From assembly GCA_030583925.1 (NCBI GenBank), contig CP129482.1, forward strand, positions 2,790,001-2,854,000: a stretch of 64,000 nt of DNA, in the 5' to 3' direction. Positions 23,353 through 35,739 of the stretch are shown piece by piece (the first letter of the stretch is position 1; every line of letters begins with the position of its first letter). Source of the DNA: Anaerolineales bacterium. Lineage in GTDB: Bacteria; Chloroflexota; Anaerolineae; Anaerolineales; Villigracilaceae. The position numbers and the translations under genes were made by a program. Below the pieces are notes generated by a model. The model saw only the letters and a program-made list of their open reading frames with translations, did no database searches and had not been told where the DNA came from.

Positions 23353-25806
23353 CTACCTGTACGCCTTCAAGCGCAAACTATTCGTCACCACGAAGACGCT
23401 GCTGAACGCCATCGCGCCTGCGGCGAGCATCGGGTTCAACCAACCGAGCGCGGCGGCGGGAATCAGAATCACGTTGTAGAAAAACGCCCAGAACAAATTT
23501 TGTTTGATCGTTGCTAGCGTCTTGCGCGAAAGAGAAATTGCGCGCGCCACGCCGCGCAGGTCACCGCTCATCAACGTCACGGGTGCGGCGGCAATCGCAA
23601 CGTCGGTTCCCGTGCCGATCGCGATGCCGACATCCGCTTGCGCGAGCGCGGGGGCATCGTTAATTCCGTCGCCGACCATCGCAATTACATTTATGATTTT
23701 CGATTGGCGATTTTCGATTGGCGTTTGTTGGAGTTTTTTGACTTCGGAGGTTTTACCCTCGGGCAACACTTCGGCGAGAACTAGAGCCTGCCCTGAGCTT
23801 GTCGAAGGGTCAATGCCAACTTGTTTCGCAATCGCCTCGGCGGTTTTTTGGTTATCGCCCGTGATCATCGCAACCTTCAAGCCCATGCGATGCAGTTCAT
23901 CAATCGCCGCTTTTGAATTTTCCTTCAACGTGTCTGCAACCGCGATCACGCCAGCCACACTACCATCAACCGCAACCAGCATCGCCGTCTTCGCTTCGGA
24001 TTGTAAACGCGCCACTTCGGATTCGAGTCCGTTCAGGGAAAAGTTCCGCGCGTTCATCATGCGGATATTGCCTACGGCAACGCTTCTTCCCTCGACTTCA
24101 GCCTGCACGCCATGACCTGGCTCAGCCGCAAACCCGACTGGCTCCGCCAAACCCAAGCCGCGACTTGTTGCTTCCGCCCAAATGGCTTCGCCAAGAGGAT
24201 GTTCGCTTCCTTTTTCGACGGATGCGGCGAGGCGCAGTAGTTCATCATGCGTAATTGGTAATTGGTGATTGGTAATTATGTCAGTGACAGCAGGTTGACC
24301 CTTCGTGATCGTCCCTGTTTTATCGAGCACGACAACGTTCACGTTGCCCGCGCGTTCGAGGGCTTCGCTGTTTTTGAACAGCACGCCCAACTCCGCGCCT
24401 TTGCCTGTCCCAACCATCACCGCTGTCGGTGTGGCGAGTCCCATCGCGCAGGGACAGGCGATCACGAGAACTGCTACCATGTTAATCAACGCGCGCGTCA
24501 GGTCGCCCGCGTCGCCGATGAAATACCAGCCCGCGAAAGTCAACAGCGCGATGCCGATGACGATCGGTACAAACACAGCAGACACCTGATCTGCCAATTT
24601 TTGAATCGGCGCTTTGCTTCCCTGCGCGTCTTCGACCAGTTTGATGATCTGCGCGAGCGCGGTCTCTTTGCCGACCTTTGTCGCTTCGAATTTCAACGAG
24701 CCGAGTTTGTTCAACGTCGCGCCGACGACCGCGTCGCCTTGTTTCTTTTCAACGGGAAGCGATTCGCCCGTGAGCATGGATTCGTCCACGCTGGATTTGC
24801 CTTCGATCACCACGCCGTCGACGGGAATCGTTTCGCCAGGCTTGACGAGCACGATGTCCCCGACGCGCACGTCGTCAATGGAAACTGAAGCCTCCTCCCC
24901 GTCGCGGATGACGCGGGCGGTTTTGGCGCGGAGTCCCATCAATTTTTTGATCGCCTCCGAGGTGCGTCCCTTTGCGCGCGCTTCCAAATATTTGCCGAGT
25001 CGAATCAACGTGATGATGACTGCCGCAGTTTCAAAGTAGACATGACCCGAGATGATCCCGAATGTGATGAATATTGAGTAAATGTATGCGACGGAGGAAC
25101 CCATGGCGATGAGCACGTCCATGTTGGCGGAGCCGTTGCGGAGCGATTTGTACGCGCCGACATAATATTGCCAGCCGACGTAAAACTGCACAGGCGCTGC
25201 GACGAGCATCATTGCGAAGTTGACCCACGCGTCGTGCGCCCAATGCCCGAGGAGGTTGAAGTCGCGCAGCATTGAAAAAACGAACAACGGCGCGGTGAAA
25301 AGCAAGCCGATGATAAACAAGCGGCGTTGCTCGTTGATCTCGTGTTCGCGCGCAATGGCTTCCGCGTCTTCCGCCTCGCCGCCGAGTTCGACCGCCTCAA
25401 AGCCCGCGTCGGCAACGGCGCGGCGCAATTCGGCTTGCGCGACGATGGTCGGCACATAGGTCACGCGCGCTTTTTCGCTGGCGTAATTCACCTGCGCTTC
25501 GAGTACGCCGTCGAGTTTGAGCAATGCCTTTTCGAGTCGGCGCGCGTCGTTATCGTCGGCGAGGCGCTTGATGATGAGTTCCGCTTCGCCTGTGGCGACG
25601 CCATAACCCGCGCGTTGGACGCGCGCGATCATGTCAGTCAGCCCGAGCTTGGCGGAGTCAAAATCAACCGTGGCGCGTTCGGACGAAAGATTGACGACGG
25701 CTGAGTTCACGCCATCGAGTTTCTTCAAATTGCGTTCCACCGTGGCGACGCAGTTGGCGCAGGTCATGCCTGTGATGGGGAGAGTGAGTTGTTTGGTGTC
25801 GGACAT
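23353..25806 (-). CDS. copA: Copper-exporting P1B-type ATPase
   Basis: 817 residues. N-terminal metal domain GMTCANC (Cys 16 and 19); a second HMA-like domain (about 75-145) has lost its CxxC. Eight membrane helices include the ion-site motif CPC in [14 protein letters not shown]. Actuator motif is LTGESLP, phosphorylation site DKTGTIT, ATP-binding SEHPLGEA, and hinge [14 protein letters not shown]. It pumps Cu(I) out of the cytoplasm. Three extra segments in the ATP-binding/P region ([30 protein letters not shown]) are encoded by repeats at 24251-24278, 23786-23811 and 23695-23722; all keep the frame. Last gene of the csoR operon. Confidence 0.95.
23695..23722. repeat. Tandem 14-mer in copA (two heptamer pairs)
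   Basis: GATTTTCGATTGGC occurs twice head to tail (23695-23708, 23709-23722). Each copy is itself two related heptamers, GATTTTC and GATTGGC. It encodes the [10 protein letters not shown] segment just before the hinge motif of CopA. Confidence 0.75.
23786..23811. repeat. REP-like insert in copA (CCCTGAGCTTGTCGAAGGG)
   Basis: The word CCCTGAGCTTGTCGAAGGG at 23791-23809 is a dispersed repeat type seen in many genomes. In the copA frame it gives DPSTSSGQA, nine residues between GID and [10 protein letters not shown] where family members normally run straight through. Confidence 0.7.
24251..24278. repeat. Heptamer repeat TAATTGG/TGATTGG in copA
   Basis: About three and a half units of TAATTGG (one copy TGATTGG) lie in the copA coding region. 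They encode TNHQLPIT on the copA strand, in the variable loop of the nucleotide-binding domain shortly before [20 protein letters not shown]. Confidence 0.75.
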
Positions 25807-25829
25807 TCACAACCTTATTCGATAGGTTT

Positions 25830-26048
25830 TTATAACGTGATCAACCCCTCGACGGGATAATCAATTTCAGACAGTAAGGCTTTGATGCTTTGCTCGCTGG
25901 CTGGCGCGTCGAATGTAATTTCAACTTTCTTCGTGTTCAAATCGGCTTTCACTGCCTGCACGCCTTGCAATTCGCCCACTTCCATTTCGATGGTATGAGT
26001 GCAATGGTCGCAGTGCATCGCGGGGACGGAATAAGTAACAGTGGTCAT
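25830..26048 (-). CDS. copZ: Copper chaperone, single HMA domain
   Basis: 72 residues. One heavy-metal-associated domain with the metal motif MHCDHC at about residues 11-16 and the ferredoxin-like beta-alpha-beta pattern. It would carry Cu(I) to CopA, whose gene starts 23 bases downstream. Same operon as csoR and the cupredoxin. Length is typical of CopZ. Confidence 0.88.
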   Translation of the reverse strand: MTTVTYSVPAMHCDHCTHTIEMEVGELQGVQAVKADLNTKKVEITFDAPASEQSIKALLSEIDYPVEGLITL

Positions 26049-26072
26049 GGCTTTTCTCCTTGTAATTGAGTG

Positions 26073-26495
26073 TTATTGATCAGAGGCAATGACGGTCAAT
26101 TTTCCCATCATGCCGGCTTCTTTATGCCCGGGAACCGAGCAGAAGAATTCATATTCTCCCGCTTCCGTTGGCGTAAACGTGACTGTGCTGACGCCGTTCG
26201 GCTGGGTGGCGACATGCAAATCCAACTCCATCGCACCCATATCGTGGCTCATCCCTTCTTCATGCCCCATGGACACGTCGCTCACGCTAATCTTTTGAAT
26301 GCCGAAGTCGTGCTCCACCACCCCGCTGTTCGTGATAGTCAAGGTCACCGGTTTGCCAAGCGGCACAGTGATCGTATCCGGGCTGAACAAAAAATCGGTT
26401 TCTTCCACGGTAACTTCAGTAGCTGGAGCTGACAATCCGCCGCAAGCGGTTAACAAAAAAACAACCGATACAAGAAGGAATAGCTTTTTCAACAT
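26073..26495 (-). CDS. Cupredoxin-domain lipoprotein
   Basis: 140 residues. Lipobox FLLTAC-G at about 12-18. The cupredoxin fold shows type I copper ligands: His in GVVEHDFG and the C-terminal C-x4-H-x4-M pattern in FFCSVPGHKEAGMMG. A His/Met-rich loop (MGHEEGMSHDMG) may bind extra copper. It is probably tethered outside the cytoplasmic membrane and either stores copper or shuttles electrons to haem proteins such as those encoded at 30408-33607. Lies between csoR and copZ. Confidence 0.85.
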   Translation of the reverse strand: MLKKLFLLVSVVFLLTACGGLSAPATEVTVEETDFLFSPDTITVPLGKPVTLTITNSGVVEHDFGIQKISVSDVSMGHEEGMSHDMGAMELDLHVATQPNGVSTVTFTPTEAGEYEFFCSVPGHKEAGMMGKLTVIASDQ

Positions 26496-26518
26496 GGGTT
26501 GGTTACCTTGGAGTCAGT

Positions 26519-26788
26519 CTAGACTTTGGCAGACATCTCGAACACTTCGGTGATTTCCTTCAGCACGCGCTGACGTTCCTTTTTGTCGTTTCCCTGAATG
26601 GCGGTGATGACGCATGAATTTAGGTGGTTTTCGAGAATTTGCGCACTCACTTTATTCAATGCCGCGTCCACCGCCTGAATCTGGCGGATCACGTCAATAC
26701 AATACGCGTCCTCTTCCACCATGCGGATAACGCCGCGCAAGTGACCTTCGATGGTTTTCAAACGGCGGAGCGTGTGTTCGGTTTCCAT
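26519..26788 (-). CDS. csoR: CsoR-family copper-sensing repressor
   Basis: 89 residues from ATG 26788 (METEHTLRRLKTIEGHLRG). All-helical CsoR/RcnR fold; the Cu(I) ligand triad Cys-His-Cys is seen as C in EDAYCIDVIRQI and H and C in ENHLNSCVI. Copper binding releases the repressor from DNA. First gene of the operon csoR-cupredoxin-copZ-copA, with a C5-9/G5 palindrome (26830-26849) 42 bases upstream as the likely operator. An upstream in-frame ATG at 26806 is possible but adds a non-conserved leader. Confidence 0.9.
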   Translation of the reverse strand: METEHTLRRLKTIEGHLRGVIRMVEEDAYCIDVIRQIQAVDAALNKVSAQILENHLNSCVITAIQGNDKKERQRVLKEITEVFEMSAKV

Positions 26789-26829
26789 GTTTTCCTCTGC
26801 AATCAAGATGCCTGTTTTCGAGCGCTTCT

Positions 26830-27340: not shown

Positions 27341-27739
27341 ATGCAAATCACACGTCAAGCCGATTATGCAACACGCGCTATACTTTACTTGGCGCGTACA
27401 GGCCGCAACACACGCGTGTCCACCAGCCAGGTTGCAACAGAGCAAAAAATTCCACCGTCGTTCCTGGCAAAGATCATTTCCCAACTCTCTGTGGCGGGTC
27501 TGCTTCATACCTCGCGCGGCGCGCGCGGCGGCGTCACGCTCGCGCGTGACCCGAACGAGATCACCCTGCTCGAAGTGGTCGAAGCCATAGATGGACCCAT
27601 CCAACTCAATATGTGTATCGAACAAAATGGCGCGTGCACGTTCGAAGGAAAATGTCCCTTGCAACCGGTCTGGTGCAGCGCGCAAGAAGAATTGGTGACA
27701 AAATTAAGAAATACAACCTTCGCGCAATTAGCGGGGTAA
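27341..27739 (+). CDS. Rrf2-family transcription regulator with Fe-S cysteines
   Basis: 132 residues. The N-terminal winged helix MQITRQADYATRAILYLAR and SRGARGGVTLARDP wing are typical of Rrf2 regulators (IscR, NsrR, RsrR). Cys at about 91, 98, 104 and 111 (MCIEQNGACTFEGKCPLQ and VWC) provide an iron-sulfur site as in NsrR/IscR, so it probably senses NO, oxygen or redox state. It starts the plus-strand set of UbiA, DUF411 and cytochrome genes, and is the best local candidate to control them. Confidence 0.85.
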   Translation: MQITRQADYATRAILYLARTGRNTRVSTSQVATEQKIPPSFLAKIISQLSVAGLLHTSRGARGGVTLARDPNEITLLEVVEAIDGPIQLNMCIEQNGACTFEGKCPLQPVWCSAQEELVTKLRNTTFAQLAG

Positions 27740-27761
27740 TTCACAGAATCAGAGAGCGACA

Positions 27762-28775
27762 ATGAATCTATCAATGTGGCGTAAGGCGCTTACCGTAATT
27801 CCTAACATAACCAAAGCCGAGTGGGATCAACTGGATACGATCTCACGCTGGCTGATTTCTACGCGCGCGGCGGTACTCGTGATGACCGCGCTCTCAGCGG
27901 CTCTTGCCGGACTTTTTGCCTGGCGCGACAACTCGTTCGCCCTCCTGCCGTGGATCGCGCTGATGCTGGGATTGGTGTTGGCGCACGCCAGCAACAACCT
28001 GCTCAACGATTATGTAGATTTTGCGCGCGGCGTTGACCAAAAGAACTATTTTCGCGCCATGTACGGTCCCCATCCGTTGAAAGACCAACTGCTTGGAAAG
28101 CGCCAGCACCTTACCTACTTTGGTATCACCGTCCTGCTGGCTTTTGCCTGCGGCTTGTATCTCATGTACCATAACGGACACGATCCTCAAGGTTGGTTTC
28201 TGCTTGGCGCGGGGGCTTTCCTGCTATTGTTTTACACATGGCCCCTTAAGTACATCGCGTTAGGCGAGATCGCCGTCTTTTTGGTTTGGGGTCCCTTGAT
28301 GGTCGGCGGCGGATATTTCGTCCTCACCGGTCACTGGAGCGCAGAAGTTATGCTCGTCGGCGTGATCTACGCGTTCGGCGTGACAACCGTTATCTTCGGC
28401 AAACACATTGACAAGATCACCGTGGACAAAGAGAAACGCATCCACACCCTGCCTGTGCTTCTCGGCGAAAAATTATCGCGGTACACCGTCATCGGCATGA
28501 TGATCATCCCGTACTTCCTCGTCCTATACCTCATCATAGCCAAAGGCTTTTCGCCGGCGCTTCTCGTCACCGTGTTAGCCATTCCGCGCTTGCGGCAAAT
28601 AATGACGGCGTTCCTCCAACCCAAGCCCAAAGAACGCCCGGAAGGCTTCCCTGATGGACAAGGCGGATGGCCCCTCTACTTCGCTCCGCTGGCGTTTGTA
28701 TACAACCGAACATTTGGTTCCCTCTTCTTTCTGGGTTTATTGGCAGACGTTATCTTGAAAAAGTTGCTTACCTAA
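27762..28775 (+). CDS. UbiA-family prenyltransferase, MenA-like (copy 2)
   Basis: 337 residues, about nine membrane helices. Motif 1 is NNLLNDYVDFARGVDQKN and motif 2 is KHIDKITVDKEKR, the same layout as the protein at 14187; the two are paralogues along their whole length. The second motif has fewer Asp residues (KHIDKITVD against KHIDKHDDD), so substrate use may differ. It starts 22 bases after the Rrf2 regulator and is probably in its operon. A quinone tail-adding role is inferred. Confidence 0.83.
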   Translation: MNLSMWRKALTVIPNITKAEWDQLDTISRWLISTRAAVLVMTALSAALAGLFAWRDNSFALLPWIALMLGLVLAHASNNLLNDYVDFARGVDQKNYFRAMYGPHPLKDQLLGKRQHLTYFGITVLLAFACGLYLMYHNGHDPQGWFLLGAGAFLLLFYTWPLKYIALGEIAVFLVWGPLMVGGGYFVLTGHWSAEVMLVGVIYAFGVTTVIFGKHIDKITVDKEKRIHTLPVLLGEKLSRYTVIGMMIIPYFLVLYLIIAKGFSPALLVTVLAIPRLRQIMTAFLQPKPKERPEGFPDGQGGWPLYFAPLAFVYNRTFGSLFFLGLLADVILKKLLT

Positions 28776-28849
28776 AATTCCAAGACCCAACAAATACCCC
28801 CGGACATATCCGGCTGAATAATTGACCGCTCAAATAGAGGATGTGTTCA

Positions 28850-29770
28850 ATGGAAATCGGTCCAACCACAACCTTCTGGCAGGGATTCTGGCGGCTGGCT
28901 GACCCAAAGATCTCGCTTGCCTCCTTTGCCTCGATCTTCCTCGGCGCGTGCATCGCCGCCGCGGACGGCTCGCTTCATTTCGGATGGCTGGCTGTCACTG
29001 TTTTGGGAATTTTCGCCATCGAGGTCGCCAAAAACGCCTCCGGCGAAATCTACGATTGGAACAGCGGAAACGATCAGGCTGTGCAAGCGGAGGATCGCTC
29101 TCCCTTCTCCGGCGGTAAACGCGTCCTGATAGATCATCTGCTAACCAAAAACCAAACAGCGGGCATCGCGTTAACCTGTTACCTGCTCGGCGGCGCGGCA
29201 GGGCTGTCCATCATCTTCTGGCGCGAGCCTGCCATCCTATGGCTGGGAGTAATCGGCATCGCGCTGGCTTTCTTTTATCACGCCCCACCGCTCAAACTTT
29301 CCTATCGCGGTCTGGGGGAACTGGCAGTCGCCGTCGTCTACGGACCCATGATCTCCGCCGGAACATACCTCGTTCAACGCGGCTCGATCTCAATCGAAGT
29401 GATCGCCGTTTCATCCCTGCTCGGAATACTCATCGGATCATTTTTGCTGATCAACGAATTTCCAGATTATCACGCGGACAAATCCGCCGGTAAACGGACT
29501 CTCGTCGTCAAATTTGGACGCCGCCCCGCCAGCCGAATCTACCTTTGGCTTCTCGCTTCGACCTTCGCCCTTTTGGTTGCTTTGCCGCTCTTTCAATTTC
29601 CCCTCACCCTCTGGCTGGGATTGATCGCCGTCATTCCCGCCTATTCAGCCGCGAAACAACTGACCCAAAATTTTGAAACCACCAGCGAGATCATCCCCGC
29701 GCAGGCGAACACGCTCCTTGCATTTCTCCTCTTCTCCCTCGGCGCCGGGATAGGATTCTTGCTGGCATAA
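28850..29770 (+). CDS. UbiA-family prenyltransferase (copy 3, divergent)
   Basis: 306 residues. Motif 1 is reduced to EVAKNASGEIYDWNSGNDQA and motif 2 is NEFPDYHADKSAGKRTLVVKFG, the more usual MenA-like second motif. Hydrophobic helices span the rest. I chose ATG 28850 because GAGG lies 9 bases upstream; ATG 28841 is directly against the same GAGG and cannot use it. Less like the other two, so it may act on another acceptor. DUF411 gene begins 11 bases after its stop. Confidence 0.8.
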   Translation: MEIGPTTTFWQGFWRLADPKISLASFASIFLGACIAAADGSLHFGWLAVTVLGIFAIEVAKNASGEIYDWNSGNDQAVQAEDRSPFSGGKRVLIDHLLTKNQTAGIALTCYLLGGAAGLSIIFWREPAILWLGVIGIALAFFYHAPPLKLSYRGLGELAVAVVYGPMISAGTYLVQRGSISIEVIAVSSLLGILIGSFLLINEFPDYHADKSAGKRTLVVKFGRRPASRIYLWLLASTFALLVALPLFQFPLTLWLGLIAVIPAYSAAKQLTQNFETTSEIIPAQANTLLAFLLFSLGAGIGFLLA

Positions 29771-29781
29771 AAGGGAGACCC

Positions 29782-30231
29782 ATGAAAAAGTTAATTACCG
29801 CTCTTGCCCTCGCCGCCCTCCTCCTTGCAGCGTGCGCGCCTGAAAAAGCAGAGGGTATTCCGATCACAGTGTACCGTTCCCCTACCTGAGGTTGCTGTGG
29901 CGACTGGGTTCAGTATATCGAAGATAACGGCTTCGATGCGACCATCAAAAACGTGCAAGATATGAGTCCCATCAAGAGCCAATATCAAGTGCCGCTTGAA
30001 CTTGAGTCATGCCACACCGCCATCGTGGATGGCTACGTGATCGAAGGACATGTTCCGGTGAAAGAGATCAACCGCTTGTTGGACGAGCGACCCAACGCGA
30101 TCGGGCTGGCTGTGGCAGGGATGCCCATCGGTTCGCCCGGCATGGAAACGGCTGGGATCGCCCCTGAGCCGTATCAAGTCATTTTGTTCGCCGCCGATGG
30201 AAGCCGGGAGGTCTTTGCCAGTTATCCATAA
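29782..30231 (+). CDS. DUF411 lipoprotein with in-frame TGA at the first motif Cys (candidate selenoprotein)
   Basis: 149 residues if UGA is read through. Signal peptide and lipobox (ALLLAAC-A, Cys 18) are followed by VYRSPT-[TGA]-GCCGDWVQYIEDNGF. DUF411 proteins have C-x-C-C here (SPTCGCCGDW), so the TGA at 29887-29889, codon 36, replaces the first conserved Cys. Frame and conservation continue unbroken to 30231 (ESCHTAIVDGYVIEGHVP, GMPIGSPGME). Most likely selenocysteine insertion; a nonsense mutation or read error is the alternative. DUF411 proteins are thought to be metal-binding periplasmic or extracellular proteins, and copper genes lie nearby. AAGGGAG precedes ATG 29782. Automated calling would start at Met 29953 and lose the motif. 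Confidence 0.72.
29890..29943 (+). promoter_or_regulatory. Possible bacterial SECIS-like structure after the in-frame UGA
   Basis: Hand-folded. An outer stem pairs GGTTGC (29890-29895, directly after TGA) with GCGACC (29938-29943). Inside are ACTG-GGTT-CAGT (29903-29914, loop starting with GG, 17 bases after the UGA) and ATCGAAG-loop-CTTCGAT (29917-29937, seven perfect pairs). Bacterial SECIS elements lie just 3' of the UGA with a G at the start of the apical loop, which the first hairpin fits. Confidence 0.4.
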
Positions 30232-30407: not shown

Positions 30408-32594
30408 ATGAAGTTAAAAAACATTCTGATTTCGATTGGAGCGATCCTGATCTTCGGGGTCATTCTCGCCGCCTGCGGATCCACACCGACCTCCGCTCCA
30501 ACAGATGCGCCCGAACCAACTGAGGCTCCCGCGCTCCTGCCTGAAACGCCCTATCTGGCAGACTGGCAATCCAGCGGTCACGCGGATGTAGCGGGCGAAC
30601 CCTTCCGCCATTGGGATGCGGAAGATCCTGCCGAAGTTCCCACTGCTTGCGCAAAGTGCCACTCCACAGCCGGTTATGAAGATTTTCTCGGCGCGGATGG
30701 CAGTGAAGTTGGCAAAGTAGATGGAGCCGTCCCTGCGAGTGAAGCGCAAGGCGTCCAGTGTGTGGCATGTCACAATCCGGCTACGGTATCCAAAACAACG
30801 GTCACATTCCCATCCGGCGTTACGATTACTGCCGGGAGCGATGTGCGTTGCATGGAATGCCACCAAGGGCGCGAATCGAAACTGAGCGTGGACGCGCAGA
30901 TCGAACGTTTTGCCGCGACCGATGCCGATGCCGTGGTCGCCCCAATCAAGGACGATCAGGGTAATGATGTGTTCTTCGGCTTCCGCAATGTACATTATTA
31001 CGCGGCGGCGGCTACGCTGTACGGCAATAAGACCATGGGCGGCTATCAATACGACGGTTTGACCTACGACTCAAAGAACGATCATGTAGAGGGATACGAC
31101 ACGTGCATTGGCTGTCACGATTCTCACACGCTGGAAGTGAAAGTCCAAGATTGCGCCACTTGCCACGAAAATGTTGATACGGCTGAAGATCTGAAATCGG
31201 TGCGCATGGTAAGCTCCATGAGCGATTACGACGGCGATGGCGATGTGCAAGAAGGCATGTATTTCGAGATCGAAGGCTTGCAGAAAATTTTGTATGCTGA
31301 GATGCAGAAATACGCGGCAGACAAAGCCGGCATCGGTCTGCTATATGAAGCCAGCGCCTACCCGTATTTCTTCCAAGATACGAACAAGAACGGCGCCGCA
31401 GACGAAGACGAGGTTGCCTTCTCGAATGCGTTCTCCAGTTGGACGCCGCGCTTGTTGAAAGCCGCGTATAACTATCAAGTCTCGTTGAAAGACACCGGCG
31501 CGTACGCGCACGGCAACAAATACATCGTGCAGTTGCTCTACGACTCGATCGCCGATCTCGGCGGTGATGTGAGCAAACTGGCTCGCGACGACGCCGGTCA
31601 CTTTGCCGGCAACACCGAAGCCTTCCGTCATTGGGATGGGGAAGAAGAAGGCAATGGGACCGTCCCGTATGGATGCGTGAAGTGTCACACGGCCGGAGGT
31701 CTGCCAGAATATATAACCAATGGCGGAACAACGGTTATCACTTCGAATGGCACGACCCAGATCGTTGGTTTGAGCGCGATGCCCGCGAGCAACGGCTTCC
31801 AATGCGCCACCTGTCACAACGAAGAATCGTTCCCCGATCGCTACACGGTCAATTCCGTAACTTTCCCCAGCGGAAAATCAGTCAGCTACGGCGGGCAGGA
31901 TGCGGATGGGAACTTCCTGCCGGACGATTCAAACCTGTGCCTCTCCTGCCACCAGGGACGCGAATCAACTGCCAGCATGAACAACGCGCTGCGCGGCAAA
32001 GACCTTGACACCGTAGACGCCAAGATCCGCTTCAAGAATATTCACTACTTTGCGGCAGGCGCGACGCTCTTCGGCGCGGATGTGCAAGGCGCGTACATGT
32101 ATGAAGGCAAGGAATATGCCGGTCTGAACGTACACGCCAAGCCTGAGGGCAGGGTCAACAAATGCCAGGACTGTCACGATGTTCATGACCTCGAGCCTAA
32201 ACTCGAAGCCTGCGAAACCTGCCACGCCACCAACGACCCAACGGCGATCCGGGAGACCGATGTGGATTACGACGGTGACGGCAACGTGGAAGAAGAAGGG
32301 ATCGCCGGTGAAGTTTCCACGCTGGCAGACGCGCTCTACGCTCAAATGCAAACCTACTCGGAAACTCACGGCGGAACGATCACTTACGACTCGCACGCCT
32401 ACCCATACTTCTTCGGTCCGGACGGCAAAGGCTACGCCGCATGGACGCCGCGTCTCGTCAAAGCCGCGTTCAACTACCAGTATGTGCAGAAAGACCCGGG
32501 CGCGTACGTCCATAACCCGAAGTTTGTGATCCAGTTCCTAATTGACTCGATCGAAGACCTCGGCGGCGATGTGAGCGCCTACACGCGACCGTAA
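30408..32594 (+). CDS. Decahaem c-type cytochrome lipoprotein
   Basis: 728 residues. Lipobox VILAAC-G gives a lipidated Cys at about 23. Ten CxxCH haem sites are visible: CAKCH, CVACH, CMECH, CIGCH, CATCH in the first half and CVKCH, CATCH, CLSCH, CQDCH, CETCH in the second. The two halves repeat each other (FRHWD before haem 1 and 6, GVQCVACHN/GFQCATCHN, CHQGRES before 3 and 8, WTPRLLKAA/WTPRLVKAA near each end), so it arose by duplication of a five-haem unit. No CxxCK active-site haem. It would face outside the membrane as a terminal electron carrier or reductase. TAAGGAG precedes the ATG. Confidence 0.85.
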   Translation: MKLKNILISIGAILIFGVILAACGSTPTSAPTDAPEPTEAPALLPETPYLADWQSSGHADVAGEPFRHWDAEDPAEVPTACAKCHSTAGYEDFLGADGSEVGKVDGAVPASEAQGVQCVACHNPATVSKTTVTFPSGVTITAGSDVRCMECHQGRESKLSVDAQIERFAATDADAVVAPIKDDQGNDVFFGFRNVHYYAAAATLYGNKTMGGYQYDGLTYDSKNDHVEGYDTCIGCHDSHTLEVKVQDCATCHENVDTAEDLKSVRMVSSMSDYDGDGDVQEGMYFEIEGLQKILYAEMQKYAADKAGIGLLYEASAYPYFFQDTNKNGAADEDEVAFSNAFSSWTPRLLKAAYNYQVSLKDTGAYAHGNKYIVQLLYDSIADLGGDVSKLARDDAGHFAGNTEAFRHWDGEEEGNGTVPYGCVKCHTAGGLPEYITNGGTTVITSNGTTQIVGLSAMPASNGFQCATCHNEESFPDRYTVNSVTFPSGKSVSYGGQDADGNFLPDDSNLCLSCHQGRESTASMNNALRGKDLDTVDAKIRFKNIHYFAAGATLFGADVQGAYMYEGKEYAGLNVHAKPEGRVNKCQDCHDVHDLEPKLEACETCHATNDPTAIRETDVDYDGDGNVEEEGIAGEVSTLADALYAQMQTYSETHGGTITYDSHAYPYFFGPDGKGYAAWTPRLVKAAFNYQYVQKDPGAYVHNPKFVIQFLIDSIEDLGGDVSAYTRP

Positions 32595-32610
32595 CCGAAC
32601 AAACAAAAAG

Positions 32611-32654
32611 ACCGAAAACAGGTGACGGCGAAAAATCCATCACCTGTTTTCGGT
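32611..32654 (+). terminator. Hairpin terminator/attenuator after the decahaem gene
   Basis: A 15-bp perfect stem: 32611-32625 pairs with 32640-32654 around a 14-base loop. It starts 17 bases after the stop codon. A short A+T stretch rather than a long T-run follows. It would end most transcripts from the 30408 gene and make the heptahaem cluster its own unit. Confidence 0.65.
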
Positions 32655-32674
32655 TAATTGACAAAAAAGGTAGT

Positions 32675-32704
32675 GATGACATTTATTGTCCAGATTTATG
32701 ACAG
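32675..32704 (+). promoter_or_regulatory. Paired ATGACA boxes upstream of the heptahaem cluster
   Basis: ATGACA at 32676 and 32698 (22 apart) with GTCCAG between. Read on the minus strand this is CTGTCAT, CTGGACA, ATGTCAT at 11-base steps, close to a Pho-box array. The same boxes precede the decahaem gene. Confidence 0.4.
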
Positions 32705-32782
32705 TCAGCACTTACTCATAATGCCATTAACTCGTACGATAACCATCGGATAATTCCACTTTTTACCCGGAGCAGGCAGACA

Positions 32783-33607
32783 ATGAACCCGACAAAAAAA
32801 CTATTCTTTTTCACGGGCGCACTCGCCCTCTGTATGGTATTTGCCGCGCTCGTTCTGATCCCCACGCGCGAAGCGTCGGCGATCGAGCCGGTCAAACAAA
32901 GCCCCAATGAGTGCTTGGAATGTCATGAACAGGCTGGAAAACTGTGGGAAGACAGCCGTCACCGAGAGACAAATGTGAGTTGCACGGTTTGCCACAAACT
33001 TGCGGATACAAACGGAAAACATCCCGAAGACGCCAAGTATACGGTCGAAAGCGAGACAGACACCTGCCTTGTGTGCCATGCGGAAGTTGCCGGGAAAAAC
33101 GTCGCGGGCGAACTGGCGATCAGCGAGCATGGAAAAGTAGGCTTGACCTGTCTCAGTTGTCACGAACAACATTCACAGGGACTCAAACTAGCCCCCGGGT
33201 CAAGGACGATCTGCGAAAACTGCCATAAAGACGAGACGAGGGAAGTGCTCGAATCAACCCACTTTGCGGCTGGACTCAGTTGCGTCAACTGTCACATGGG
33301 CGCGGACAAAAACCATACGCTGATCGTATCGGTGACCACCTGCGGCGAATGTCACACCGACCTGCACGATGCAAAACGAATGCTGGACGCCGGACTCGAT
33401 ATAAAAGTTATGGCGAAACCGGAAGCCATGGTGGAAATAACTCCGCTCCCCGAGACGCCAGCCGTCCCGGAGACTGAAGCGAACGCCGGTGGCGTCCATC
33501 TGCCAGCCTGGCTCCTTGTTGTGGCGGGCGTACTCATCGGCGGCATTGTTGCGTGGGCAGTGTTCGGAAAGGAACCGGGGAATCCGTCCGCCGGTAAACC
33601 ATCCTGA
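32783..33607 (+). CDS. Heptahaem c-type cytochrome with C-terminal membrane anchor
   Basis: 274 residues. N-terminal signal (LFFFTGALALCMVFAALVLI), then seven CxxCH sites: CLECH, CTVCH, CLVCH, CLSCH, CENCH, CVNCH, CGECH within residues about 40-195. A Pro/Glu-rich linker leads to a single C-terminal helix (LPAWLLVVAGVLIGGIVAWAVFG). The haem domain lies outside the membrane and is tethered beside the NrfD-type subunit encoded two genes downstream. It likely passes electrons from the ferredoxin/NrfD pair to the decahaem lipoprotein. CGGAG is upstream of the ATG. Confidence 0.85.
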   Translation: MNPTKKLFFFTGALALCMVFAALVLIPTREASAIEPVKQSPNECLECHEQAGKLWEDSRHRETNVSCTVCHKLADTNGKHPEDAKYTVESETDTCLVCHAEVAGKNVAGELAISEHGKVGLTCLSCHEQHSQGLKLAPGSRTICENCHKDETREVLESTHFAAGLSCVNCHMGADKNHTLIVSVTTCGECHTDLHDAKRMLDAGLDIKVMAKPEAMVEITPLPETPAVPETEANAGGVHLPAWLLVVAGVLIGGIVAWAVFGKEPGNPSAGKPS

Positions 33608-33628
33608 GATCTGCCCGGAGGCTGAATC

Positions 33629-34462
33629 ATGAAAGAACACGAAAACGAACAACAAGCTGCATCCGAAGAAAAGAAAGGCACAACCCGCCGGGAATTTCTA
33701 AAACTGGCTGGCGCAGTGGTGGCGGCGGCAGGCGTAACGCAGTTTGTGGCGGCAAAGACCATCGCCGCTCGCGCGTCGTCCGGCGATGACAAGGAAGGCA
33801 GCGGTCATCAATGGGGTATGTTGATTGACATCAACTTGTGCATTGGATGTCAATATTGCACCTACGCGTGCAATGCCATCAACAATCTCGCCGATGATAT
33901 GCGCTATTGCGTTGTCACTACCGAAACGACACAATCGGGAGACGAATTCTTCCTCTCGCGTCCCTGTATGCACTGCGAAGAAGCCCCCTGCGTGCACGTC
34001 TGCCCGGTTGGCGCGACCTACAAACGTCCGGATGGAATCGTCGCCATGGACTACGACCTTTGCATCGGATGTCGGTATTGTCAGATCGCTTGCCCCTACG
34101 AAGCGCGCGTGTTCAACTGGCGAGAGCCGATCGAGTTAAGCCCCCACTCCCCCGCGTTCGGATATCAGGAAGTGCCGAATCGTCCCCGCGGCGTCGTCGA
34201 AAAATGCACGTTCTGCTCGCATCGCATTGACGCGGGATTGGAGCGCGGTCTCGTCCCCGGCGTGGATACGCAAGCGACTCCAGCCTGTGTGGTGGCTTGC
34301 CCCACCACCGCCCGCATTTTCGGCGATCTGAACGACCCAGCCAGCCCGATCTCGACGGCGCTTGCCGACGCGAAGGTCACCCTGCGTTTGCGGGAAGAAC
34401 TTAGCACCGAACCGCGCGTGTTCTACATTCCTCCGGATTCGAACACATCGAATCCATTCTAA
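33629..34462 (+). CDS. Tat-exported four-cluster ferredoxin, NrfC/HybA/PsrB-like
   Basis: 277 residues. Twin-arginine signal TTRREFLKLAGAVVAAAG at about 17-35. Four cysteine sets: CIGCQYCTYAC, CMHCEEAPCVHVC, CIGCRYCQIAC, and CTFC with CVVACP, enough for four [4Fe-4S] clusters, as in DmsB, PsrB, NrfC and HybA. It relays electrons between the membrane quinone subunit (next gene) and the cytochrome upstream. It starts 21 bases after the heptahaem gene and ends 11 bases before the NrfD-type gene. No molybdopterin subunit is present beside it, which separates this set from standard Psr/Dms operons. Confidence 0.9.
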   Translation: MKEHENEQQAASEEKKGTTRREFLKLAGAVVAAAGVTQFVAAKTIAARASSGDDKEGSGHQWGMLIDINLCIGCQYCTYACNAINNLADDMRYCVVTTETTQSGDEFFLSRPCMHCEEAPCVHVCPVGATYKRPDGIVAMDYDLCIGCRYCQIACPYEARVFNWREPIELSPHSPAFGYQEVPNRPRGVVEKCTFCSHRIDAGLERGLVPGVDTQATPACVVACPTTARIFGDLNDPASPISTALADAKVTLRLREELSTEPRVFYIPPDSNTSNPF

Positions 34463-34473
34463 GGGAGTTGAGT

Positions 34474-35739
34474 ATGCAATCCAATATTCACTATCCCAAA
34501 CTTCGGATCGGAAAAACTCGCCTCGATATTTTCCCCTACTGGATCGGACTCTTGGCGGCTGGTATCCTGTTCGGTCTGGTCGGAGCATTCGTCGTTTTGC
34601 GCGACGGCTTGCAAGTAACAGGATTGTCTAACAAAGTGCCTTGGGGATTATGGATCTCCATTGATCTGTCCTCCATCGCGCTGGGCGGTTCAGCCTTCGT
34701 ATTCGGCGTGATCGTCTACCTCCTAAAATTGAAACGCTTCGAGGTGATCGGCAAGCTGGCGGTGCTACTCGGTTTCTTGGGATACTCCACCGCAGGGATG
34801 GTATTGCTCTTTGATCTGGGTCAGCCGCTGCGTTTCTGGCATCCCGTTGTGTTTTGGCAGCCGCACTCGCTTCTCTGGGAAGTGACGATGTGCGTCGTGT
34901 TGTATCTGACCGTGTTGGTCGCCGAGATCGTTCCCATCGTTGTAGAGCATCCGTTCTTTACCGATCATCCATTGCATAAGAAATTTCCGATCGTGAAAAA
35001 ACTCGCGGCATTCGCAAAGACGGTCTCCCGCTGGCTTCACAAGGCTGGTCCAATTCTCGCCATCGCGGGGCTGACCCTTTCCCTTTTGCATCAGGCATCG
35101 CTCGGCGCGACCTATTCCGTTCTGTACGGACGCGGCATCTGGTTCAACCCCAGCGCGCCGGTCCAATTTGTTCTATCCGCGATGAGCGGCGGGATCGCCC
35201 TGCTCTTTTTCATGGGCGTGATCGTTTTTCGCGTGATGAGGCGCGGTCTGGTGGCAGACGATGTGCTTTACGATATTGCCCGGCTTTCCGGCGGAGTAAC
35301 GCTCTTGCTTACCTATCTCCGATTGTGGGATTGGGCGGTAACCAATTACTATTCCTTCGACCGCAATATCAGCCTGCAAACCGAAGCGCTGAACGCTGTC
35401 GCCCCATACACCCTCTCTTTCTGGATCGGACAGGCGTTATTGCCGGTGATCGCCGGGTCTGTTCTGCTGGCGGCTAAGTCGGTTAAGAACTTCCGCTACT
35501 TGATGGTTTTTTCAGTCATCCCAATTTTTGCCGCCATCCTCACACGCTGGAACTATAACTTTTCAGGTCTGATCGCCACGCCGACTTACGACCCGTATAC
35601 GCCGGTCATCGTCTTAAATTCCTATACCCCCACGTGGGTGGAATTTTCAGTTGCCACGCTTGTTATTTCGTACTGGCTGTTGATGTTCAGTTTTGCCGCC
35701 CGTTATCTGCCGTTTCAGTCCGCTGGGAACGAACACTAG
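34474..35739 (+). CDS. NrfD/HybB-family quinone-interacting membrane subunit
   Basis: 421 residues with about ten membrane helices. YWIGLLAAGILFGLVGAFVV, PWGLWISIDLSSIALGGSAF and GLSNKVPWGLW are typical of NrfD/HybB/HmcC proteins, which exchange electrons with the quinone pool. ATG 34474 is chosen over TTG 34468 because GGAG sits 6 bases upstream of the ATG. With the ferredoxin and two cytochromes it resembles Hmc/Nhc-type transmembrane redox complexes of sulfate reducers. The UbiA genes upstream could make the partner quinone. A strong hairpin follows downstream at 35889. Confidence 0.88.
   Translation: MQSNIHYPKLRIGKTRLDIFPYWIGLLAAGILFGLVGAFVVLRDGLQVTGLSNKVPWGLWISIDLSSIALGGSAFVFGVIVYLLKLKRFEVIGKLAVLLGFLGYSTAGMVLLFDLGQPLRFWHPVVFWQPHSLLWEVTMCVVLYLTVLVAEIVPIVVEHPFFTDHPLHKKFPIVKKLAAFAKTVSRWLHKAGPILAIAGLTLSLLHQASLGATYSVLYGRGIWFNPSAPVQFVLSAMSGGIALLFFMGVIVFRVMRRGLVADDVLYDIARLSGGVTLLLTYLRLWDWAVTNYYSFDRNISLQTEALNAVAPYTLSFWIGQALLPVIAGSVLLAAKSVKNFRYLMVFSVIPIFAAILTRWNYNFSGLIATPTYDPYTPVIVLNSYTPTWVEFSVATLVISYWLLMFSFAARYLPFQSAGNEH

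Follow-up and report, generated by a model that had tools for sequence, protein, structure and literature searches.

A DUF411/CopG lipoprotein with an in-frame TGA is very probably a selenoprotein and represents a widespread family

Introduction

A gene for a DUF411 lipoprotein in an Anaerolineales bacterium (Villigracilaceae; assembly GCA_030583925.1, contig CP129482.1) carries a single TGA in its reading frame. Does this TGA end the gene, does it mark a gene in decay, or is it read as selenocysteine (Sec)? The original prediction, made from the letters of the window alone (the window being the whole stretch of 64,000 nucleotides analyzed), had taken the gene for a selenoprotein candidate and had suggested a link to nearby copper genes.

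CopG of Pseudomonas aeruginosa is a DUF411 protein (PDB 6WIS/6WJE; Hausrath et al. 2020, as cited in PMC8456105 and PMC7558416), and the ligands of its Cu cluster are the CxCC motif and two methionines (PMC7558416). An inventory of May 2026 holds 119 prokaryotic selenoprotein families, with DUF411 not among them (PMC13188914). The protein encoded in the window reached no selenoprotein model in NCBIfam release 20.0, and a literature search that left out most subscription papers and all preprints found no paper combining DUF411 or CopG with “selenoprotein”.

Results and discussion

The read-through frame encodes a complete CopG-like lipoprotein

The following features of the window are referred to below (evidence in brackets).

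23353..26806, minus strand: copper genes, i.e. HMA P-type ATPase (CopA-like), cupredoxin and CsoR-type repressor (Pfam)
27341..29770, plus strand: Rrf2 regulator and two UbiA prenyltransferases, upstream in the same run (Pfam; synteny in Sec and Cys congeners)
29773..29777, plus strand: ribosome-binding site GGGAG (sequence)
29782..30231, plus strand: gene for the very probable Sec form of a DUF411/CopG lipoprotein, 149 aa including Sec (read-through translation, PF04214, CopG match)
29833..29835, plus strand: lipobox Cys 18, LLLAAC (sequence)
29887..29889, plus strand: in-frame TGA, Sec codon 36 (aligns with the first Cys of CopG CxCC; TGA/Cys exchange)
29893..29898, plus strand: Cys38-Cys39, the remaining cysteines of U-x-C-C (invariant in two alignments)
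29903..29914, plus strand: candidate SECIS ACUG-GGUU-CAGU (4-bp stem, GGUU loop starting 17 nt past the UGA)
30010..30012, plus strand: Cys77 of the CHT motif (invariant in two alignments)
30121..30144, plus strand: Met114 and Met121 of GMPxGSPGM, the region of the CopG copper site (both Met invariant in two alignments)
30408..35739, plus strand: multihaem cytochromes, FeS protein and a putative NrfD-like gene, downstream (Pfam for the first three; genus synteny)

The gene starts with the ATG at 29782, 11 nt past the stop codon of the preceding UbiA gene, and its frame reads VYRSPT-TGA-GCCGDW, the TGA being the sole interruption before the TAA at 30229-30231. The lipoprotein start, the SPT-[TGA]-GCCGDW stretch and the single in-frame stop of the original prediction are exact in the sequence, and its DUF411 assignment was borne out: the read-through product matched Pfam DUF411 (PF04214) with 95.3 bits (cut-off 27; 1.7e-27) and, among PDB entries, P. 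aeruginosa CopG (E value 7e-33), the TGA falling opposite the first Cys of CGCC. An AlphaFold2 model (pLDDT 97) showed the CopG fold including the C-terminal extension, and Foldseek superimposed it on CopG 6WJE with a TM score of 0.93 (126 columns, 1.3 Å). Identity to CopG 6WJE/6WIS is 46%, and in the alignments the CxCC motif and the conserved methionines are kept, with U replacing the first C.

A general recoding of UGA was rejected because UGA terminates ordinary genes here. Among the 40 open frames of at least 250 aa in the window 13 have TGA as stop codon, and selA, too, is closed by TGA. This agrees with the statement of the original prediction that UGA serves as a normal stop elsewhere in the window. 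The downstream half of the DUF411 gene alone has a GTG start and 92 aa. This half is the expected product of a standard gene caller, and the Sec form of DUF411 has probably been overlooked because this half still spans the Pfam DUF411 match.

The TGA alternates with cysteine codons

Among 150 relatives searched a homologue was found in 14 genomes. Across 57 distinct loci from pooled profile searches codon 36 was TGA in 24, TGC in 23 and TGT in 10 cases; no other codon occurred, TAA and TAG included (0/57). An additional TAA near codon 36 in one relative (G178) lies in low-quality sequence. Five genus members (four species besides that of the window, from separate assemblies) carry the TGA, while three other congeners have TGC at the same operon position; at one and the same site in the UbiA-DUF411-multihaem run the congeners carry either the Sec form (L003-L006) or the Cys form (L007-L009), and the neighbors of the Cys-form loci are 71-72% identical. 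Both TGA and Cys forms occur in other families of the order, and the same mixture was found in the class (396 genomes) and in Acidobacteriota (297 genomes). In a tree built leaving out the codon-36 site, the Sec and Cys labels switch at least four times on well-supported branches and 16 times by parsimony.

These data bear on the view that the TGA is a nonsense change, real or artefactual, from TGC or TGT. Genes with a single stop are mostly broken in general, and a few disrupted homologues do exist (L092, the first copy of L106, L128). Against this stand the TGA shared by five species of the genus, the roughly 107 homologues whose frames continue unbroken past the TGA (see below), the lack of TAA or TAG at the codon and a protein identity of about 77% across the genus. 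As a general explanation, sequencing error or decay is already refuted by the shared TGA and the intact homologues, and for the window gene itself its chance is negligible. The exchange of Cys and UGA among homologues, which the original prediction had named as the pattern to look for, was found, and decay was absent.

The probable Sec form spans seven or more phyla

A degenerate DNA pattern (Y-x2-P-T-TGA-x-C-C-x2-W) was searched against one genome per GTDB species and gave at least 120 matches, of which the 120 listed were classed by eye from each reading frame. About 107 of these are DUF411 genes, either intact or clipped by nothing more than the end of the locus; the remainder are 3 disrupted copies and 10 chance matches. 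Sec-form genes are present in at least seven phyla (Chloroflexota, Acidobacteriota, Gemmatimonadota, Rokubacteria, Pseudomonadota, “Deltaproteobacteria” and Campylobacterota), and record titles among the matches listed also name Tectomicrobia, Beta- and Gammaproteobacteria and three Helicobacter species. In our view the Sec-form DUF411/CopG very probably constitutes a selenoprotein family that is both new and widespread.

Some single records deserve mention. The Helicobacter species are H. brantae, H. cholecystus and Candidatus H. avistercoris (L051, L079, L151); L051 and L079 are strain genomes without a MAG mark, and both contain selB. Disrupted or second Sec-form copies were seen at L092, L106 and L128, with L106 holding two copies on one betaproteobacterial contig, one of them broken. 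A contig filed as Halieaceae (L080) carries a Chloroflexota-like lipoprotein version and is likely mis-binned, and a MAG titled Bordetella parapertussis (L137) has a Burkholderiales-type Sec form, so that its name looks doubtful.

The machinery for selenocysteine is present

The original prediction had pointed to selA, selB, selC and selD as genes that a selenoprotein producer should possess, and all four are present in the window genome (one contig, 3.97 Mb). selA was matched with 547 bits and selB over its full length with 350 bits, the tRNA-Sec (selC) has the anticodon TCA, and selD contains an in-frame TGA of its own (CAG-U-ASK). The same genome holds two fdhA genes about 3.5 kb apart, each with an in-frame TGA (3294431-3301979; L212, L213).

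Outside Chloroflexota, selB scored above the cut-off in 36 of 40 Sec-form genomes, compared with 2 of 10 genomes with chance matches to the pattern; in 4 of the 40 it was absent at this cut-off. In Chloroflexota 22 of 28 Sec-form genomes have selB. The six assemblies in which it was absent above the cut-off are 72-90% complete, and two genomes from this group show apparent selB fragments at contig ends. The association in Acidobacteriota (12 of 12 Sec-form, 12 of 18 Cys-form and 36 of 50 genomes without DUF411) is mild because selB is common there anyway.

A hairpin past the UGA is strong in the family and weak in the window gene

Bacterial SECIS hairpins sit directly past the UGA. Consensus folding by RNAalifold gave nothing useful for either group of sequences, and a synonymous-codon permutation was therefore chosen, in which codons are swapped between sequences within the same column and amino acid, so that the proteins and the codon make-up of each column remain unchanged. 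Its z ignores descent, and the Cys set and the next downstream stretch served as controls. In the Sec forms, nt 13-39 past the UGA fold at -8.06 kcal/mol, compared with -5.60 kcal/mol after permutation (z -15.9), and a non-Chloroflexota Sec set thinned by removing near-copies still gave z -10.5; these values are not probabilities because descent is unmodelled. By the same permutation no excess stability was found in the Cys forms (z +0.3) or further downstream in the Sec forms (z +0.2).

The hairpin outside Chloroflexota pairs nt 16-24 with 28-36 around a 3-nt loop, and a fixed 9-bp register (pairs summing to 52) fits it with z 4.2 on pairing counts. This register does not fit in Chloroflexota (z -0.2), where the gain in stability over permuted codons is slight (z about -4.5) and comes mainly from three sequences of canonical form. 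In the window gene the candidate hairpin has a stem of 4 bp and is weak (-2.9 kcal/mol, not more stable than shuffles in single-sequence folding). It shares its pairing register with the hairpin of the genome's own selD (AGCGC-UGAC-GCGCU) and lies near that of the GGUCU-loop hairpins of the two fdhA genes, which show the textbook GGUCU loop. The family hairpin being strong and that of the window gene short and weak, a SECIS is established for the family but just suggested for the window gene. A SECIS check, as the original prediction had proposed for the locus, gave a clear result outside Chloroflexota and a weak element at the locus itself.

This weakness of the canonical SECIS in Chloroflexota, window gene included, is what a different reader of the codon would lead one to expect, namely a near-cognate or suppressor tRNA (for Trp, Cys, Arg or another amino acid) acting while the Sec system is uninvolved. 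Such a tRNA is, however, hard to reconcile with a TGA that alternates with Cys alone, with the distribution of selB in Sec-form and chance-match genomes, with the selection acting on the hairpin in most family members and with UGA being a normal stop in the window genome, and we consider it very improbable. The reading as Sec is supported by the sel genes, the Cys/UGA exchange and the congeners with TGA. We put the probability at roughly 93% that the gene encodes a selenoprotein, i.e. a membrane-anchored, extracytoplasmic CopG in which SelB and tRNA-Sec would put Sec in place of the first Cys of C-x-C-C. Exchange of TGA and Cys at one operon position, the full Sec machinery, the CopG fold and the selected hairpin past the UGA in the greater part of the family, all of them evident from sequence, form the basis of this reading.

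A possible role in copper handling

In the window the copper genes and the DUF411 gene are 3-6 kb apart, and Cu-ATPase or CsoR genes are found within 1.5 kb of six Chloroflexota Sec forms (L011, L015, L162, L167, L174, L180). Outside Chloroflexota a Cu-ATPase motif stands beside the Sec form at just 2 of 88 loci, and no Pfam family dominates among 103 neighbor proteins of these Sec forms. On both results a copper neighborhood was rejected as a general trait of the Sec forms; just some of the Chloroflexota show it clearly. Most Sec forms outside this phylum lack an adjacent copper gene, so that the case for a copper role comes from fold and homology. The copper link of the original prediction is supported by the CopG fold and in part by the neighborhood. 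A side observation concerns the upstream genes at 27762-29770: two different UbiA prenyltransferases stand in tandem, and this arrangement, with multihaem cytochromes downstream, is genus-wide.

The mechanism may be pictured as follows. At UGA 36 SelB with Sec-tRNA would insert Sec; after export, the lipoprotein would be anchored outside the cytoplasmic membrane. The motif U36-G-C38-C39 would correspond to U-x-x-C in thioredoxin terms, and the CopG fold would place U36, C38, C39, the CHT Cys and the Met residues at the site of the tetranuclear copper cluster of CopG. By analogy, copper may be bound as in CopG, and the selenol could serve as an improved nucleophile or ligand for copper in the interconversion of Cu(I) and Cu(II) or in the hand-over of copper outside the cytoplasm.

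The protein could also be a selenoprotein without any copper role, its Sec-x-x-Cys serving general thiol/disulfide or peroxide chemistry, or another metal such as mercury or silver. U-x-x-C in a thioredoxin fold is the common layout of redox selenoproteins (PMC13188914), a copper neighbor is missing at most loci outside Chloroflexota, and the window gene lies within a run of UbiA and multihaem cytochrome genes. The retention of every cysteine position of CopG (with Sec at the first) and of the conserved methionines speaks against this, as do the copper genes near the window gene and the six further Chloroflexota loci; we see a function apart from copper as possible but rather unlikely. For the copper reading in its full form, that in a widespread family split by annotation Sec bridges a natural copper cluster in place of Cys and takes part in interconverting Cu(I) and Cu(II), we consider the odds to be even. 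Selenium would then lie within the copper cluster, as we infer from CopG.

Comparison with known systems

The window protein resembles P. aeruginosa CopG in its whole fold, the C-x-C-C register, the CHT Cys, the conserved Met and its export (predicted here). It differs from CopG in the replacement of the first Cys of CxCC by the presumed Sec, and most Sec forms belong to lineages different from those described for CopG, and most lie away from copper-resistance clusters. With the U-x-x-C selenoproteins of thioredoxin-like type (Trx, Grx, DsbA/DsbG-like, SaoT and Sec.1/Sec.2 of PF13192; PMC13188914) it shares the thioredoxin fold, the N-terminal position of Sec in a CxxC-type motif and the existence of Sec/Cys homologue pairs, yet it belongs to another Pfam family and adds a further motif Cys (U-G-C-C), the CHT Cys and the C-terminal extension of CopG. 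Sec at a metal-binding Cys is likewise found in predicted metal-linked selenoproteins (CopZ-like 2Fe-2S, SO_0444 Cu/Zn efflux, MerT and cation ATPase; PMC13188914). These families, however, are unrelated to DUF411, and the copper site of CopG is multinuclear and structurally known.

Conclusions

If our reading is correct, the prokaryotic selenoproteome gains a family that extends across at least seven phyla, and selenium would be tied to copper handling via a protein with a solved copper-cluster structure. Since that structure is solved, matched natural Sec and Cys counterparts within a single genus could be used to ask what selenium gains at a multi-copper site. Standard gene calling would strip each Sec-form gene of its signal peptide, Sec codon and motif, and a profile permitting U at the codon-36 column would mend the annotation in many genomes.
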